Positions 13,954 to 35,753 of a DNA stretch of 64,000 nt are shown piece after piece. A model generated the notes under the pieces. That model saw nothing but the letters and a program-made list of their open reading frames with translations. It searched no databases and had not been told where the DNA came from. The number at the start of each line of letters is the position of its first letter. The first letter of the stretch is position 1. This stretch comes from Desulfurobacteriaceae bacterium (GTDB taxonomy: Bacteria > Aquificota > Aquificia > Desulfurobacteriales > Desulfurobacteriaceae), in NCBI GenBank assembly GCA_027068415.1, contig JAMOTD010000009.1:124001-188000 (forward strand). The letters run 5' to 3'. Both the position numbers and the translations under genes were made by a program.

Positions 13954-14494
13954 CGACGAAAGAACCATAAGGGAAACCCTGAAGGAGATTTTGGAAGAGG
14001 AAGGGTACGAGGTATTTACCGAGGAGGTCGGAAGCAGGGTTTTGGAAAGGGTTATGGAGCTCCGGCCCGACCTTATAATCCTTGACCTCTTCCTGCCGGG
14101 CATCTCGGGAATGGAGGTTTTAAGGCGGTTAAACGAAGAGGGGTTGACCGAGAGGATTCCGGTGGTTATAGTTTCGGGGCACGGAACGGTTGAGACGGCA
14201 GTTAAGGCAATGAAGTTAAAGGCCTACGACTTCATAGAAAAGCCCATAAAATACGATAAGTTCCTGAGTGCAGTTGAGGGAGCCCTCAAGAAAAGGGTAG
14301 AGAGGGAGGAGATAAAAGGCATCGTTAAACTGGCACAGCTCCCCCTGAGGAAGGCAAAGGATGAGTTTGAGAAAGCCTACATAACGGAAGTCCTTAAGCG
14401 CTTTAACGGAGACCTCAAAAAAGCCGCCGCCTTTATGGAGATAGACATCTCAAACCTCTACAGAAAGCTCAACAAGTATGGCCTCAATCAGTGA
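13934..14494 (+). CDS. Response regulator, receiver plus Fis-type HTH
   Basis: A 186-residue regulator. The receiver domain (1-120) has the acidic pair Asp7-Asp8, phospho-acceptor Asp51 (LIILDLFLPG), a conserved VSGHG, and Lys in FIEKP. The C-terminal part (about 140-186) is a Fis/NtrC-type helix-turn-helix (RFNGDLKKAAAFMEIDISNLYRKL, seen here in two segments). The sigma-54 AAA+ domain normally between them is absent, giving the layout of ActR/RegA/PrrA redox regulators. No histidine kinase is nearby. The 20-bp overlap with dnaX and 17-bp overlap with the next gene suggest one transcript. Confidence 0.87.
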   Translation: MRVLIVDDERTIRETLKEILEEEGYEVFTEEVGSRVLERVMELRPDLIILDLFLPGISGMEVLRRLNEEGLTERIPVVIVSGHGTVETAVKAMKLKAYDFIEKPIKYDKFLSAVEGALKKRVEREEIKGIVKLAQLPLRKAKDEFEKAYITEVLKRFNGDLKKAAAFMEIDISNLYRKLNKYGLNQ

Positions 14495-15113
14495 AGTTAT
14501 AGAGGTTGCAAACCTTCTCGGACTCGTTGCCTTTGCCGTTTCGGGAGTTTTTAAAGGAATAAACGCAAAGCTTGACCTCTTGGGAGTATGCGTCCTCGGT
14601 TTTTTAACGGCCTTGGGAGGTGGAATCGTCAGGGACTTACTGGTTAACAGGGTTCCTAAGGCCCTTACCGGGAGCTCCGACATAACAACTACTGCCTTCG
14701 GAATAGCCTTTGCCCTTCTAACCTACAAGCTCCTCAGAAGGGACTTAAGCGGAGCAAAACCGGTTAAAGTAGTTGACGCAGTAGGCCTTTCGGCCTTCTC
14801 GGTTAACGGCTTCCTTACGGGAGCTCAGGCGGGAATAAACGACTTCGGAGTAGTTTTACTGGGAGTAATAACAGGAAACGGCGGAGGGCTCATAAGCGAC
14901 CTGCTGACCGGAAAGATTCCTTCCGTTTTGAAGGAGGACTTCTACGCTTCTTGCTCCCTTATCGGCGGAATCGTTTTCCTATTAACCTACGGAAGACTTC
15001 CGCCGGAGCTCTCAACAGGCCTTACTTTTTTCTCTATACTGATACTCAGGCTGGTAGCAATAACAAAAAGTTGGAGGTTGCCCCGCTTTGGACTTTATGA
15101 AGGAAGAGATTGA
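14478..15113 (+). CDS. TRIC cation channel family (YadS/YicG-like) membrane protein
   Basis: A 211-residue, mostly hydrophobic protein with an internal two-fold repeat. Each half carries the family's glycine-rich helix: LTALGGGIVRDLL in the first half, ITGNGGGLISDLL in the second. About seven membrane helices are expected. Prokaryotic TRIC proteins form trimeric K+-permeable channels. The ATG lies inside the end of the response-regulator gene. The hydrophobic pattern and both motif copies make the family call firm; the physiological role is unknown. Confidence 0.87.
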   Translation: MASISEVIEVANLLGLVAFAVSGVFKGINAKLDLLGVCVLGFLTALGGGIVRDLLVNRVPKALTGSSDITTTAFGIAFALLTYKLLRRDLSGAKPVKVVDAVGLSAFSVNGFLTGAQAGINDFGVVLLGVITGNGGGLISDLLTGKIPSVLKEDFYASCSLIGGIVFLLTYGRLPPELSTGLTFFSILILRLVAITKSWRLPRFGLYEGRD

Positions 15114-16224
15114 AAGGCTAAAGGAGAAGAACCTATACAGGGAGCTCCGTGAGATTGAAACTCCTCAGGGCAAGAGAGTTATTGTAGGCGGGAGGGAGCT
15201 CCTGAACTTCTCATCAAACGACTACCTCGGACTTGCAAAGGAGTTTGACTGTGAATGCCTGAAGAGGTGGGGAGCCGGGAGCGGAGCCTCAAGGCTCGTC
15301 TGCGGTAGCTTCACAGTCCACAGGGAGCTTGAGAGAAGACTTGCCGAGCTAAAGAAAACCGAGGACTCCCTACTCTTCTCAACGGGCTACATGGCAAACC
15401 TCGGGGTAATCTCAACTCTTGCGGGAAAAGGAGACCTGATTCTCTCAGATGAGCTCAACCACGCTTCAATAATTGACGGAATAAGGCTTTCAAGGGTAGA
15501 AAAGGTGGTTTACCCCCACCGAAGCTGGGAGTTTGTGGAGGAGTACCTCAGGAAAAACAGGGAAAAGTACCGCCGTTGCTTCATAATAACAGATTCAGTC
15601 TTCAGTATGGACGGAGACATTGCACCTCTTGACAGGCTTTTTGAGATTAAGGAGAAGTACGACGCAATCCTCGTGATAGACGACGCCCACGCAACGGGGG
15701 TAGTGGGGTGGAGCTCCCTTGAGCTCTTTAAAATTGAGCCCGACGAAAAAACGGTAATAGTAGGAACGCTGGGAAAGGCTTTAGGGACTTTCGGGGCATT
15801 TGTCTGCGGGAGCAGAGCCTTGAGGGAGTACCTAATAAACAGGTGCAGGAGCTTCATCTTTACAACGGCCCTGCCGCCCTTTATAGCCTGCCAGACCTTA
15901 AAAAACATTGAGAAAGTGCCCGAGAGAATGGAAAAGCTCTGCAGGTTAATTGAGCTCTTCAGAGACCTAACGGGAATAGAGAGCCGCTCTGCAGTCTTCC
16001 CCTACATAGTCGGAAGCGAAAGGGAGGCCGTGGAGCTCTCAAACTACCTCTTTGAAAAGGGCTTCTTTGTCCCCGCAATAAGGCCCCCGACCGTTAAAGA
16101 GAGCAGATTAAGGATAACAATAACCGCCGAGCATTCAGAGGAGGAGCTTAAAGGACTATGGAAAACGATAAAGAATTTTAAAAAAAGGGCGGGAGAGCCG
16201 CCCCGAGGGGGATGCCAGAGCTGA
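15088..16224 (+). CDS. bioF: 8-amino-7-oxononanoate synthase (BioF-like alpha-oxoamine synthase)
   Basis: A 378-residue PLP enzyme. The Schiff-base Lys is Lys230 in VGTLGKALGTFGAF, the PLP-contact motif DDAHATG is near 198-204, and the substrate region FSSNDYLGL is near 41-49. The expected reaction condenses pimeloyl-ACP with alanine at the start of biotin ring assembly. 2-Amino-3-ketobutyrate ligase (Kbl) is the main alternative, since the families overlap. The start is taken as TTG 15088, with GGAGG 10 nt upstream; ATG 15097 is possible. The last residues (GEPPRGGCQS) extend past the fold because the coding end lies inside a large hairpin. Confidence 0.83.
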   Translation: MDFMKEEIERLKEKNLYRELREIETPQGKRVIVGGRELLNFSSNDYLGLAKEFDCECLKRWGAGSGASRLVCGSFTVHRELERRLAELKKTEDSLLFSTGYMANLGVISTLAGKGDLILSDELNHASIIDGIRLSRVEKVVYPHRSWEFVEEYLRKNREKYRRCFIITDSVFSMDGDIAPLDRLFEIKEKYDAILVIDDAHATGVVGWSSLELFKIEPDEKTVIVGTLGKALGTFGAFVCGSRALREYLINRCRSFIFTTALPPFIACQTLKNIEKVPERMEKLCRLIELFRDLTGIESRSAVFPYIVGSEREAVELSNYLFEKGFFVPAIRPPTVKESRLRITITAEHSEEELKGLWKTIKNFKKRAGEPPRGGCQS

Positions 16225-30373: not shown

Positions 30374-31555
30374 ATGGCCGTTGAGCCGACGGTTATTGAA
30401 GGGAGAGTTCCGATTTACGTTTACGCCAAAGAGATTGAGCCAGAAGTAAGGGCGCAGATTGAGAGGCTAAAAGATTTACCCTTTTTCAGGGATAAGATTG
30501 TAATAATGCCCGACTGCCACGCCGGTAAGGGGTGCGTAATAGGATTTACCGGCTACTTTGACGAGGTCGTAATTCCAAACATAGTAGGGGTTGATATAGG
30601 GTGCGGAGTCTATACTTACCCCCTCGGAATAAAAGTTGACAGGAAAAACCCGCAGGCAGACATCAACCTACCCAAATTTGACGCCTTCGTTAAGGGAAAT
30701 ATCCCTACGGGGCTCACTTCACGAAGTAAGAAGAACGCCAAGAAGCTACCGCTAACAAAAGAGGATAAGGAGCTCCTATCAGAAATCCGCTCAATCCTCA
30801 TTAACACATACAAGATTGACCTAAACGAGCCCCTTTTACAGGTAGGAACTTTGGGCAGCGGAAATCACTTCTTGGAGTTAGGGATTGACGAAGAGGGGGA
30901 GCTCCACCTGACAGTCCACACAGGCTCAAGGAACTTAGGGCTAAAGGTTTGCAACCACTTCCAGAGAAAGGCAAAGGAGTACACGAAGAGAGTTATGCCC
31001 GACCTTCCGGCAGACCTTTCTTTCCTGCCCCTAAATAAGGGAGGAAGGGAGTACTTGAGGGCAATGAGGCTTGCCCAGAGGTACGCAGACCTAAACAGGA
31101 GAACGATTTTAAAGATTATCGTTGAGGAGTTCTTCAGGCAGGAGTTTAAGGAGAAAAAGCTTATAAAAAGCGTTCACAACTACATAGACCTTGATAGGGA
31201 CATGTGCGTAAGGAAGGGGGCAATTTCGGCACACAAAGGGGAGAAAGTAGTAATTCCCTTTAACCTGACTACCGGACTGATTATAGGAAGGGGGAAAGGA
31301 GTAAGGGAGCTTAACCTCTCTGCTCCTCACGGTGCAGGAAGGAAGTTGAGCAGGAGAAGGGCAAAAGAACTCTTTTCTGTTTCTGACTTTAGAAGAGCCG
31401 TTGAGGAGGCCGGAGTTTACTCCTCAACCGTTTCAAAGGAGACCCTTGACGAAGCTCCCTTTGCCTACAAAGACCCTAACGAGATTTTGGAGTTCCTGCC
31501 TAAAACCGTTGAGATTGAGAAGTTCGTAAAACCGATTTACAACCTGAAAGGCTAA
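30374..31555 (+). CDS. rtcB: RtcB family RNA-splicing ligase
   Basis: A 393-residue RtcB counted from ATG 30374 (GGAG 9 nt upstream; a GTG at 30368 is in frame). Key motifs are MPDCHAGKGCVIGFTG, GVDIGCGV with the metal-binding Cys, GTLGSGNHFLEL, a metal-site histidine in VHTGSRNLG, and GAISAHKGE. The guanylylation region APHGAGRKLSR carries the His that receives GMP. It joins 2',3'-cyclic phosphate or 3'-phosphate RNA ends to 5'-OH ends. It is shorter than E. coli RtcB, like one bacterial subgroup. It lies next to the CRISPR array, but no functional link is shown. Confidence 0.94.
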   Translation: MAVEPTVIEGRVPIYVYAKEIEPEVRAQIERLKDLPFFRDKIVIMPDCHAGKGCVIGFTGYFDEVVIPNIVGVDIGCGVYTYPLGIKVDRKNPQADINLPKFDAFVKGNIPTGLTSRSKKNAKKLPLTKEDKELLSEIRSILINTYKIDLNEPLLQVGTLGSGNHFLELGIDEEGELHLTVHTGSRNLGLKVCNHFQRKAKEYTKRVMPDLPADLSFLPLNKGGREYLRAMRLAQRYADLNRRTILKIIVEEFFRQEFKEKKLIKSVHNYIDLDRDMCVRKGAISAHKGEKVVIPFNLTTGLIIGRGKGVRELNLSAPHGAGRKLSRRRAKELFSVSDFRRAVEEAGVYSSTVSKETLDEAPFAYKDPNEILEFLPKTVEIEKFVKPIYNLKG

Positions 31556-31578
31556 AGGAGGGGCGGCTACCCCTCCTT
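31555..31578. terminator. Shared hairpin between rtcB and the NIT-domain gene
   Basis: AAGGAGGGG (31555-31563), loop CGGCTA, CCCCTCCTT (31570-31578). The stop codons of both convergent genes fall in or at the edge of the hairpin. T runs are short in both directions. Confidence 0.6.
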
Positions 31579-32577
31579 AACCCTGAGAGAGACAAAGGAT
31601 ACGGCAAGAATAACTGCAATCGCAATAAAGGAGAGGATAAGAACGCCGTTAAGCCTCTTTTTAGCCTCTTTCTTTATCTCTTCAATTCTGTTAATTAGGT
31701 CTTTGGCTATAAAGCTCTCAACCCTGTGCATAAGGTCAATTTTCTTCGTAATCGTTGAGAACCACTGATTGGGGTCAATGTTGAGAGCTCCCTCGGTAAA
31801 GGGAGAGGAGAGGGCGAGCCTTTCGTAGTTGAGAACTTGAAGCGAGGGCTCAGAAGAGACTACAGTCTTCCTGTAGTACTCCCTTACCCTGTCGGGTGCG
31901 GCCAGTGAGAAAGCCTTTAAGAAGGCCTTCTGCTGTGCCATCAGGTCAACGAACCTTGTAAAGAGCTGGGGAGACGTAAACCTTTTATTGGCAAAGGCGA
32001 TAGAAAGAACGGCCCTTTCAAGGCCTGCTTTTTCCTTTGCGTACATAAAGTCGGCGTAAGCAAGGAGCTCCTTAGCAACTCCGGCGTCATTTGCGTACCT
32101 CGCAAGGAGAGCTACAGAGTCTATAAGGTCGTTATTGAGCTGGGTATAGTACCTGATTGCCTCCCGAAGAGGAATCTGCAGGGAGTCAACCTTTACCCTT
32201 ACCTGGCTTATGTCGTTTAGCTTATTAAGAATAACAGAGAGGAAAACTTCCTGAGCCTTGGAGGGAAGAGCGGAGACGTACTCTTTTGTCAGGTACTTCT
32301 CAAGCTCCTTAATTTTCTCGTCAGTAAGCCTCCTCTGCTCCTGAAGTTCCTCCCTAAAAGCCTTACCGCCGCTTCCAAGGAAGCCGGCAGTTCTTCCTCT
32401 TTCCTTCTGAAATTCGTGGACGAGCTCTGAGATTTTTGTTGAGAGGACAACACTCCTCTCAAGGGATTGAGATACCTTAAGGGATTGACGAGCTTCTCCT
32501 ACGAGAAAGTAGGAAAGGACGAGGATTGCCACAAGGGAAACGAGTGAAAGAGTTAAAAACTTTAGCTTAAGGTTCAC
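31567..32577 (-). CDS. NIT-domain membrane sensor protein without output domain
   Basis: A 336-residue protein from GTG 32577. A membrane helix at about 8-28 (LTLSLVSLVAILVLSYFLV) is followed by an all-helical periplasmic region of about 275 residues, a second helix at about 310-330 (GVLILSFIAIAVILAVSF), and a 6-residue tail. The start of the sensor, with SELVHEFQKERGRTAGFLGSG (split as QKERGRTAGFLGSGG), is the hallmark of the NIT nitrate/nitrite-sensing domain. In known proteins this domain precedes HAMP plus a kinase, cyclase or chemoreceptor module; here translation stops after the second helix. The ribosome binding site lies in a 17-bp stem. Confidence 0.75.
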   Translation of the reverse strand: MNLKLKFLTLSLVSLVAILVLSYFLVGEARQSLKVSQSLERSVVLSTKISELVHEFQKERGRTAGFLGSGGKAFREELQEQRRLTDEKIKELEKYLTKEYVSALPSKAQEVFLSVILNKLNDISQVRVKVDSLQIPLREAIRYYTQLNNDLIDSVALLARYANDAGVAKELLAYADFMYAKEKAGLERAVLSIAFANKRFTSPQLFTRFVDLMAQQKAFLKAFSLAAPDRVREYYRKTVVSSEPSLQVLNYERLALSSPFTEGALNIDPNQWFSTITKKIDLMHRVESFIAKDLINRIEEIKKEAKKRLNGVLILSFIAIAVILAVSFVSLRVKEG

Positions 32578-32643
32578 TCCTAACCTCCTGGTAAATTTGA
32601 TTTGGACTGTAATTTTAATTGATTTAGAGGTCAGGAGTGAACC
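32571..32643 (-). promoter_or_regulatory. Stem-loop that would occlude the NIT gene ribosome binding site
   Basis: GGTTCACTCCTAACCTC (32571-32587) is complementary to GAGGTCAGGAGTGAACC (32627-32643) except at one position. In the minus-strand RNA that position becomes a G-U wobble, so all 17 positions pair around a 39-nt loop. The downstream arm contains both the GAGGUUAGGAG binding site and the GUG start codon. This is the geometry of a translational switch or RNA thermometer. Confidence 0.65.
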
Positions 32644-32650
32644 CGTAAGT

Positions 32651-33724
32651 TTAAGCTACCGGGTAAGCGAACTCCGGCCTCTCCTCAACAAGCTTAATGT
32701 CGGTTGCCTCTTTGGGAAGGGGAACAACCTTTACCCTCTCAACCCACCTCTCGGGAAGGTGGATAACCCTTCCGCCTATCCTGATTGTTGCGGGAGCAAC
32801 CCTTGCCTTATACTTGATTCTGACGCCCCAAACCTTTCTGCCAAATTTATTCTCAAACTCGCCGGGGCCTTCAATCTCAATGTCTTTAGCGCTTCCAGGG
32901 AAGTAGATTCTCTTGGCGTAGTGCCTGTTCCTCCCCTTGTGGAAGTAAACAAGCCAGAGGACTTTACCCTCCTTGTACTTGGCCTCGGTGGGAATGTACT
33001 TCTCTGCCTTTTCCTCCTCCTCCAGAAGCCTCTGGACGTACTGCTCTAAGGTCTCGTCCTCTCTAACCTCGTTCTCAGTCCAGACCTCAAACTCAACTTT
33101 CCAACCCTTAACCTCTGCAATTATGTTTGCCAGCTTAACGTTCCTCTTCTCTTCCTTCTCAACGAGCTCGTCAATTTTGTCTAAGGTGTCGGCGAACCTT
33201 TCCCTAAAGTCGGGAAGCTTTGTAATTGCAACAATCAGGTCTCCCTGTTTCTTGAGCCTCTCAAGGGTTTCTTCACTGTCGGCAAGGACCATTGCCTTCC
33301 TGATTTCGCAGAAGTTCCTGCGGAGCTCCTCAAGAATTTCAGGAGAGAGCTTCAGGTCAACAACGCTCTCAAGGATTTCCTTCATTACCTTTTCAGGAAT
33401 CTCCTTGAGCCTTTCCTCAATTGTAAGGTTGTCACTTCCCCAGGGCCTGTACTCCTTGTCCCAGCCCTTGTACTTGGTGATGTAGTTTGCAAGCCTTACG
33501 GTTACCCTGTTCTCCTCACAGGCAACTTCCCTGAGCTCCTCAACCATTGAACCGAACTTCTTCTTCCAGAAGGGGGAGTAGGTTAGGGTACACAGGTAGT
33601 CCGAGCGCTTTTTGAGGTCTGTGAGCTGTTCGGAAGTTTCAACCTCAAGCATTTCGTCTCTGATGATGCAGTTGATACGCCTGATGTCTTCGGGTCCTTC
33701 AACCCTTCCGTAGATTACTGCCAT
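32651..33724 (-). CDS. Unrecognised protein with internal 79-residue duplication
   Basis: A 357-residue protein from ATG 33724, preceded by GGAGGGAG; an in-frame GTG at 33736 is less likely. Residues 17-95 and 137-215 align without gaps. Twenty-five identities include C-x-IR-x-x-M, L-x-x-LKK-x-x-D, V-x-LAN-x-I and KGW. Each unit is probably a helical domain of four to five helices. The rest (about 225-357) looks beta-rich, with KVLWLVYFHKGRNRHYAKRI and GGRVIHLPERW. No signal peptide or membrane helix is seen, and no family is recognised. It lies between a DUF505 gene and the NIT sensor, all on one strand. Confidence 0.75.
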   Translation of the reverse strand: MAVIYGRVEGPEDIRRINCIIRDEMLEVETSEQLTDLKKRSDYLCTLTYSPFWKKKFGSMVEELREVACEENRVTVRLANYITKYKGWDKEYRPWGSDNLTIEERLKEIPEKVMKEILESVVDLKLSPEILEELRRNFCEIRKAMVLADSEETLERLKKQGDLIVAITKLPDFRERFADTLDKIDELVEKEEKRNVKLANIIAEVKGWKVEFEVWTENEVREDETLEQYVQRLLEEEEKAEKYIPTEAKYKEGKVLWLVYFHKGRNRHYAKRIYFPGSAKDIEIEGPGEFENKFGRKVWGVRIKYKARVAPATIRIGGRVIHLPERWVERVKVVPLPKEATDIKLVEERPEFAYPVA

Positions 33725-33771
33725 CTCTCCCTCCACTAAATTTGGTTTACCCCCTCGTTATTCTTTGAGAA

Positions 33772-33809: not shown

Positions 33810-35753
33810 TTAATTGAGCTTTTCAAGGGCTTCAAGGATTAAGAGACCCGCCTCGTTGATGGAGCTCTTACCTACGAGGTTTGAAGCCCTGAGGATAACC
33901 ATCTCCTCCTCAAAGGTGTCGGGGTCAAGGCCCGAGAGCTTAATGGCTTCCTTGATGTTCTTGGGAAGAACCCTGACCTTCTGCTCCTTAACGTAGAGGG
34001 TTCCCACCTTCCTCAAGGCCTCAAGAACCCTTACTGCAAGGGGAGTAATCGGGTTGGCAAGGCCTTCGGGAGTTCCCGAAAGTGCCCTCTTAATAAGCTT
34101 TCCGGCCTCTGTAAGGATTATGGCCTCGTTCTGGAGGATATCTATGTAGCCCCTCGCCTCAAGTTTGTTGAGGGCGTACTCAACCTCTTCCCTCCAGGTC
34201 TCGTCAAAGGCCTCGTAAACGTCCTTGACGAAGAAGCCCTTTTCGGGAAGTTTGTGGAGAACTTGAAGCTCAAAGCGAGTAATGTGGGGAAGCCTCCTAA
34301 TCTCGTAGGCCATCTGGGCGTACATCTTACCTGCTTCCGTAGCCTCACCTCCGCCGATTAAGTAGGCGGCAACACCCTTGTTGTACCAGTCAACGTTGGG
34401 AGCAGCAAACTCTTTGTTCGTAATTGTGATTGCCTTAACGGCAACTGCAGGAATTTCTCTAAATCCGCGGGTCTTCATGTCTTCAAGAACTTTCTTACCG
34501 TAGTCGGTAAGGTAGTGAACCTTCTTGCCCTCGTAGTTTTCAGAGCGAATAAGGTTAAAGGACTCAAGGGTGTAGAGGGATTCCTGAACGATGTCGTACA
34601 TCTTCTTGTACCACTCGTTGCCCTTCTCGTAGAAGGATTTAAAGAGCTCCTCTACAGTCTTAACCTCGCTGAACTTCTTCTTAATTTCCTCCTTCTTCTG
34701 GTAGCCGAGGTCCTGGTAGAGCCTCCTTCCGTAATGCTCAAGGAGGTGTTTGTACTCTTTCAAAGGCTTGTAGAAGAGGTAGTGGACGAGCTCGTCAACT
34801 GTGGGAAGGGTTGAGGGGTCCTGCTCGTGGTGCTTCCAGACCTCCTCAATTCCTCTCAGGAGCTCTGCGTCTAAAATCTCAACGTTGATTGACTTAACCG
34901 GCTTAAAGCTCCTCTCCTTCCAAATCCTGTAAGCCTCAAGGAGGTGCTCACCTGCCGGCAAGGGATTGCCCTTGTCGTCAATAAGGGCAAGGGCGAAGAG
35001 AACCTCTTTCTCCTCATCACTTATTGCTTCAAAGCCTTCGTAAACTGCCCTCTCAAGACTGTCCATAATGTCTTCAGAGATAACGGTTTCAAGTGTCGGA
35101 GCGATTGTTTCACAGGCGGCCTTAATCTCCCTGCCTAAGGCAGTTAAAGCGTAAACGTCGGAGTTGGGAACGGAGAAGGCCAGAAGCCTCATTGCTCCCA
35201 TTAAAATGGGGAATCTTCCGCCTGCCGGAAGCATTGAGGACTCTGCCGGACCTGCGGGCATCTCCTTAATGTACTGATAGAGCTCCCTGTCAATTATGAG
35301 CCTCGGGTGTGCGTTCCTGAAGACCTCGTAAACGTCCTTTGCGTATTGGTTTATCGCCTTGAAAGTCCCCTTCTTCTCAATCTTCCTCTCCTCAATAAAG
35401 CCCCTCTTTGCGAGCTGCTCCTCCGTTAAGGGGCCGGGAATGTCATCGTTCTCAATGGCGGTCTCAATCATCATAAGGACTTCAGAGCCCAACCACCTGA
35501 AGTTATCATCCCACTTGCTCGGGTGGGGAATGAGCCCCTTCTCAACCATTTCGTCAATGATGTTTGCAAGGACTCTGCCCCAGTATGTTAACGAGTACTC
35601 TAAGGGACGAACGAGCCTCAAGAGGTTCATCCTCTCAAGCTCTAAGTAGGGGGGCTCTTCACTCTTAACGAAGAGCCGGCAGGTCGGAGCCTGATTCCTC
35701 TCCTCCTCCCTTACCCTGAGGAGCGCAAGGGCGTGCTCTTTTCTAATTACCAT
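33810..35753 (-). CDS. DUF505 family protein
   Basis: A 647-residue soluble protein that reads like the DUF505 family known from archaea and Aquificota; function unknown. It starts MVIRKEHALALLRVREEERN. Repeated segments resemble winged-helix units: LTALGREIKAACE, LTDYGKKVLEDMK, LTEAGKLIKRALSG and INEAGLLILEALE, each a 'xxTxxGxxxxxx' wing ending. Such repetition suggests a scaffold of several HTH-like domains, possibly nucleic-acid binding (inference). It is the first gene of a minus-strand group with the duplicated-domain protein and the NIT sensor. An 11-7-11 palindrome lies 103-131 bp upstream. Confidence 0.75.
   Translation of the reverse strand: MVIRKEHALALLRVREEERNQAPTCRLFVKSEEPPYLELERMNLLRLVRPLEYSLTYWGRVLANIIDEMVEKGLIPHPSKWDDNFRWLGSEVLMMIETAIENDDIPGPLTEEQLAKRGFIEERKIEKKGTFKAINQYAKDVYEVFRNAHPRLIIDRELYQYIKEMPAGPAESSMLPAGGRFPILMGAMRLLAFSVPNSDVYALTALGREIKAACETIAPTLETVISEDIMDSLERAVYEGFEAISDEEKEVLFALALIDDKGNPLPAGEHLLEAYRIWKERSFKPVKSINVEILDAELLRGIEEVWKHHEQDPSTLPTVDELVHYLFYKPLKEYKHLLEHYGRRLYQDLGYQKKEEIKKKFSEVKTVEELFKSFYEKGNEWYKKMYDIVQESLYTLESFNLIRSENYEGKKVHYLTDYGKKVLEDMKTRGFREIPAVAVKAITITNKEFAAPNVDWYNKGVAAYLIGGGEATEAGKMYAQMAYEIRRLPHITRFELQVLHKLPEKGFFVKDVYEAFDETWREEVEYALNKLEARGYIDILQNEAIILTEAGKLIKRALSGTPEGLANPITPLAVRVLEALRKVGTLYVKEQKVRVLPKNIKEAIKLSGLDPDTFEEEMVILRASNLVGKSSINEAGLLILEALEKLN

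Follow-up and report, generated by a model that had tools for sequence, protein, structure and literature searches.

How can a gene be translated when its start codon and most of its Shine-Dalgarno sequence are folded into one arm of a long hairpin? The question arises for a gene encoding a NIT-domain protein in the window, the whole 64,000-nucleotide stretch of DNA that we analysed. Genes were called with a simple ORF script and starts were placed by their Shine-Dalgarno sequences, which gave the following arrangement around the hairpin.

33810-35753, minus strand: DUF505 gene, the first of the upstream pair
32651-33736, minus strand: UP361, the upstream gene, 361 aa, belonging to no Pfam or NCBIfam family
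31567-32577, minus strand: NIT-only membrane protein, 336 aa, with PF08376 at residues 51-294 (E 1e-62)
31555-31578, no strand assigned: hairpin AAGGAGGGG/CCCCTCCTT where the convergent NIT and rtcB genes end, overlapping both, read from the sequence

The NIT domain is flanked by hydrophobic segments at both ends of the protein, and searches of the 336 residues against Pfam and NCBIfam families found no output domain; the gene product is presumed to be a nitrate/nitrite sensor. The hairpin at 31555-31578 is a probable two-way terminator for NIT and rtcB. Longer NIT proteins (open frames of at least 660 aa) are present in G019 and G002, and UP361 has relatives with 54-91% identity in contigs labelled Aquificota, Campylobacterota and Bacteroidota.

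The hairpin preceding the NIT gene, as delimited by a stem scan, consists of these parts.

32626-32644, minus strand: 5´ arm, GGGTTCACTCCTGACCTCT, missing from RNA begun in the loop
32589-32625, minus strand: loop, 37 nt, A/T-rich
32570-32588, minus strand: 3´ arm, GGAGGTTAGGAGTGAACCT, carrying the GTG start and the greater part of the Shine-Dalgarno
32584-32589, minus strand: Shine-Dalgarno AGGAGG
32575-32577, minus strand: GTG start codon of the NIT gene, pairing with CAC in the 5´ arm

A sequence-only reading of this DNA had described two arms that pair at all 17 positions in RNA. We found them as an inverted repeat (32571-32587 and 32627-32643, 94% complementary in DNA, 39 nt spacing) whose sole DNA mismatch becomes G-U in the minus-strand RNA, as that reading had stated, and with wobbles counted the stem extends to 19 pairs (32626-32644 with 32570-32588). 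The reading was correct in placing the GTG start in the 3´ arm but not the whole Shine-Dalgarno, most of which lies there. It also rightly located the hairpin in the gap outside coding sequence, the 5´ arm starting 6 nt past the stop codon of the upstream gene. Folding of the minus-strand RNA gave -37.9 kcal/mol at 37 °C (z = -6.7), matched by 0 of 200 shuffles, and the predicted energy is still approximately -12 kcal/mol at 75 °C, consistent with the earlier view that the stem is too stable to open spontaneously. An outer 7-bp helix (UAGCUUA/UAAGCUA, 32563-32569 with 32652-32658) is also predicted, involving the end of UP361 and NIT codons 3-5.

The stem scan, which covered 1.571 of 1.595 Mb (98% of the genome), yielded 407 ungapped stems of at least 13 pairs with loops of 12-90 nt; the NIT hairpin is the longest and the only one of 19 pairs. 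Stems of at least 13 pairs that overlap a start were detected at just 8 of approximately 1,590 genes, the NIT stem again being the longest, and we rejected a chance stem on this count. Three other candidate explanations were discarded as well: a dispersed repeat (no second full copy of the arms is found across the genome), an intrinsic terminator of the upstream gene (the loop is 37 nt and the 3´ arm is followed by TAAGCTAAAG, with no T run), and membership of a known RNA family (the only Rfam matches were weak ones to generic miRNA hairpins, well short of threshold).

The host belongs to the Desulfurobacteriaceae, hot-vent Aquificota in which the named relatives are Thermovibrio and Desulfurobacteriaceae genomes, and we compared the locus among members of this family. 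A NIT orthologue precedes a convergent rtcB in 12 genomes, ten times behind DUF505-UP361 and twice (G018, G017) behind DUF505 alone. The rtcB of G021 (L009 2508-3224) matches in three pieces of uneven identity and is therefore broken, frameshifted or badly assembled, and a NIT relative in G007 (L019 1501-2358) has an in-frame TAA and another gene context. Covariation in related genomes had been suggested as a check, and pairing over the start codon was indeed conserved in 8 of the 12 orthologues (G000, G020, G006, G005, G004, G002, G003 and G016), with stems of 13-19 pairs that are not attributable to chance, since only about 8 in 1,590 genes have one. The arms are largely or wholly unlike between clades: TTCACTCCTGACCT in G000, CTTGCTCCTGCCTC in G020, CCGGTTCGCCCGT in G016, and, across the five members of genus g2, CCCACGGCTCTCCT with minor differences. 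In G016 a shorter stem sits further downstream, beginning at the ATG and not above it. As a single genus accounts for five of the eight stems, they amount to about three independent cases.

Covariation was assessed in a gapless alignment of seven start-anchored orthologues (5 distinct rows), the arms being joined by an artificial A spacer. Paired bases filled 98.6% of the alignment cells, compared to 45-52% after sliding by 1-3 columns, a control biased in favour of the observed register because the 5´-arm register had been picked by pairing. Double-sided changes were present in 8 of 14 pairs, and the covariation score was reached by 0 of 500 shuffles. Among the stem orthologues, the internal non-Watson-Crick pairs were 8 G-U and 0 A-C, though both were scored alike, and therefore the pairing acts in this RNA strand and not in DNA, which agrees with the function at the RNA level that the earlier reading favoured. 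Arms and loop vary between clades except for the Shine-Dalgarno, the start and the -10 element described below. Together, these sequence comparisons strongly support an RNA-level stem, under selection for pairing, that sequesters the ribosome binding site; the outcome named earlier as refuting it, homologous intergenic regions that share no pairing, did not occur.

The same data bear on whether the inverted repeat might instead be a DNA operator, bound by a repressor that acts on the NIT promoter. The repeats do flank the -10 box, but the arm sequence differs even between G000 and G020, which belong to the same genus, and every departure from Watson-Crick pairing is a G-U, an asymmetry between strands that a DNA element would not display. 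On these two grounds we rejected an operator, and consider it very improbable.

The loop contains a candidate promoter, with these features.

32612-32617, minus strand: -10 element TAAAAT(T), in the loop, 40 nt before the start codon, score 8.7
32603-32607, minus strand: predicted transcription start, around 32605, placed from the -10 element alone

Scores come from a 12-position -10 matrix learned from 283 divergent genes of the same genome, where TANAAT peaks at -40 to -31 (0.247 per divergent gene versus 0.029 in operon-internal genes). The loop element exceeds 97.8% of operon-internal genes. In all eight stem orthologues the best matrix match falls in the loop, as TAAAAT, TATAGT or TACAAT at -41 to -34, the customary spacing from the start codon in this genome, and the summed loop score is 59.7, compared to 10.1 ± 8.2 in local dinucleotide shuffles (0 of 500); with five of these boxes from one genus, there are about three or four independent cases. 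The -35 box, judged by eye, is weak or absent. Because the promoter is in the loop, RNA begun there never contains the 5´ arm: a start 6-7 nt past the -10 would leave, in 8 of 8, a leader of 22-29 nt without the 5´ strand (approximately 28 nt for the NIT transcript in the window, again as predicted from the -10).

Folding models suggest that the two kinds of RNA would differ in how free the start codon is. At 75 °C, the start codon of the full-length RNA is predicted to be unpaired 0.2-0.8% of the time in six genomes and 15-20% in G020 and G016, compared to 24-78% in RNA started in the loop. The sequence-only reading had named coupling, heat, a ligand or a protein as what translation would require, and so missed the loop promoter, the simplest release. 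Heat is an unlikely one. Melting at high growth temperature, as in an RNA thermometer, would suit thermophilic hosts, and a start-codon hairpin resembles thermometers in outline, but at 85 °C the start codon is predicted to be just 0.4-2% unpaired in six of the eight orthologues (at least 98% paired over 75-85 °C), with -6 to -11 kcal/mol remaining, while the growth optimum of T. ammonificans, a named relative, is 75 °C (PMC3570795). Folding models at 60-95 °C predicted no melting in the physiological range; we rejected a thermometer, for which we see hardly any chance.

In the four orthologues that have no start-codon stem (G019, G021, G018 and G017), the gap separating NIT from the upstream gene holds a GC hairpin with a T-rich stretch behind it, and there is a -10-like box at -34 to -47; the T run is short in the terminator-like hairpin of G021. 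Thus, in a division that rests on 12 related genomes, eight orthologues have the stem without a terminator and four a terminator-like hairpin without the stem, with none having both and none neither, and a -10-like box is present in all 12. No terminator was seen by sequence between UP361 and NIT in the stem-bearing loci, and where UP361 precedes other genes in these bacteria, its stop codon usually has a GC hairpin behind it. Mapping the stem onto the NIT tree needs three changes, and therefore the stem was gained or lost more than once. We also considered an element belonging to the end of the upstream message, which would stabilise the 3´ end of the DUF505-UP361 transcript or provide it with an RNase III site. 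A long duplex directly after the upstream stop is what such an element would look like, but it leaves unexplained that the 3´ arm invariably coincides with the start codon and that a long loop holds a -10 box, and we give it very little credence.

We consider it probable that the hairpin is a translational insulator built around the NIT gene's own loop promoter. Polymerase reading on from DUF505-UP361 would make RNA with both arms, which would fold and block the ribosome at the NIT start, and RNA begun at the loop promoter, lacking the 5´ arm, would be translated. NIT output would then track its own promoter and ignore upstream read-through. Terminator and stem would be answers to one problem, NIT expression independent of that read-through: the terminator would halt the RNA, and the stem would permit the RNA but block its translation, with the loop-promoter RNA escaping. 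All that we say about promoters, transcripts and translation, including the NIT transcript start and the silencing of read-through RNA, is inferred from sequence and folding models.

The main rival is translational coupling, since the stem begins 5-16 nt past the first base of the UP361 stop. The NIT start would stay closed until ribosomes completing UP361 perturbed the foot of the stem, which would make NIT output depend on UP361. That distance, seen in 8 of 8 stem orthologues, is close to where the footprint of a terminating ribosome ends, and gene order is conserved. Yet the bases that pair with the first position of the start codon are 13 to 28 nt beyond the beginning of the stop codon, and elongating ribosomes do not open the 5´ arm, since it never lies within the upstream coding sequence; moreover, a loop promoter would be superfluous, and a terminator-like hairpin takes the place of the stem in some orthologues. 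In translational coupling by an intercistronic hairpin, the start of the downstream gene is paired in the polycistronic RNA, and the NIT start is likewise paired; unlike in such hairpins, the NIT 5´ arm falls outside the upstream coding region, in no case within the translated upstream frame, and a promoter occupies the loop. We regard coupling as unlikely.

Less likely again is a regulated switch, in which a protein, small RNA or ligand opens the read-through hairpin, for example under nitrate. The presumed nitrate/nitrite sensor encoded by the gene and a predicted stability too great for opening alone would fit a switch, but Rfam returned no family at threshold, and the arms and loop differ between clades (bar the Shine-Dalgarno, start and -10), so no conserved binding site is visible. 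With nothing in Rfam above threshold and loops differing between clades, the hairpin does not look like a riboswitch, and no link of the hairpin to nitrate was found.

Insulation by RNA folding, our preferred reading, has precedents. Fold-back inhibition of the transposase is known for IS10 and IS50. IS200 counters impinging transcripts with two stems, one terminating and one occluding the ribosome binding site (PMC3196728). The NIT gene would resemble these elements in being protected from impinging transcription; however, IS200 uses both stems, whereas the NIT species use a terminator or a start-codon stem as alternatives, and no mobile element was seen at the NIT locus. In phage T4, the Shine-Dalgarno and/or the start of genes e (lysozyme), soc, 49 and I-TevI is masked by folding of long transcripts that come from upstream; gene e has a promoter in the region of the 5´ strand, short transcripts without that strand are translated, and a 100-fold effect was reported for long versus unstructured transcripts (PMC3014915). 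The predicted NIT arrangement is alike, with a start paired in the long RNA and a promoter placed to omit the 5´ arm. In contrast to T4, which uses the device for timing with the phage late sigma, NIT is a chromosomal gene of thermophiles with an ordinary-looking -10, and its stem, unlike that of gene e, is swapped for a terminator in relatives. Our literature search found no report of the NIT leader hairpin and no papers on bacterial silent long isoforms. On the best reading, fold-back silencing known from phages and mobile elements here serves a chromosomal gene in hot-vent bacteria.

We also looked at wider use, testing for duplexes between the region upstream of the expected transcription start and the ribosome binding site. 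With two genomes pooled and a cut-off of z = -3, of the 118 co-directional genes that have a promoter of their own 13 went beyond it, compared to 9 of the 264 divergent ones (p 0.0045 by Fisher test and 0.036 by rank test, this being one of several comparisons made); the second genome alone (800 kb of G019) gave no significant rank test (p 0.28), although its strong tail leaned in the same direction. This modest excess at other internal promoters hints at wider use. In the sucC leader (C15 of this genome, minus strand, 14217-15387, L169; also L171, L174, L184 and L185), the Shine-Dalgarno forms part of an 8-10 bp stem that encloses a strongly conserved TGTAAAAATTTTGTTAAAATG block, with arms GGCGGGAGGC/GCCTCCTGCC in G000, GGCGGGAGG/CCTCCCGCC in G019 and GCAGGGAG/CTCCCTGC in G011/G012. 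Such pairing of the Shine-Dalgarno, spanning a conserved TAAAAT, is seen in G000, G019, G020, G011 and G012 but not in most others, and the 5´ arm in G000 falls within the end of the upstream coding sequence; the leader is possibly a second fold-back with compensatory change. Similar arrangements were noted, also in this genome, at a hisD-like gene (C15, minus strand, 86816-88142), where AACCCTGCT and AGCAGGGTT, the latter directly before the ATG, enclose TATAAT, and at an HspR/MerR-like gene (C9, plus strand, 104430-104802), where CCACTCCTT and AAGGAGTGG pair over the Shine-Dalgarno around a long loop that may hold a promoter. A 2-oxoacid-oxidoreductase-like candidate (C15, 37775-39398) was dropped, as the stem was not repeated in the three other orthologues whose start was located by a sequence pattern. 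We treat sucC and the genome-wide excess as leads, not findings. That the Desulfurobacteriaceae repeatedly use fold-backs wrapped round internal promoters in place of terminators, gaining and losing them just as readily, is a tentative idea that we doubt more than we believe; if true, it would give neighbouring genes in compact genomes a cell-wide means of translational independence.

For other genomes, the NIT locus offers a search rule, a start-codon stem with a -10 box in its loop. If our reading is right, a real transcript can be silent by virtue of its start site, which would bear on RNA-seq and operon maps of compact genomes. A bacterial chromosome would then separate neighbouring genes by RNA folding instead of transcription termination, and folding and termination would replace each other between close relatives.
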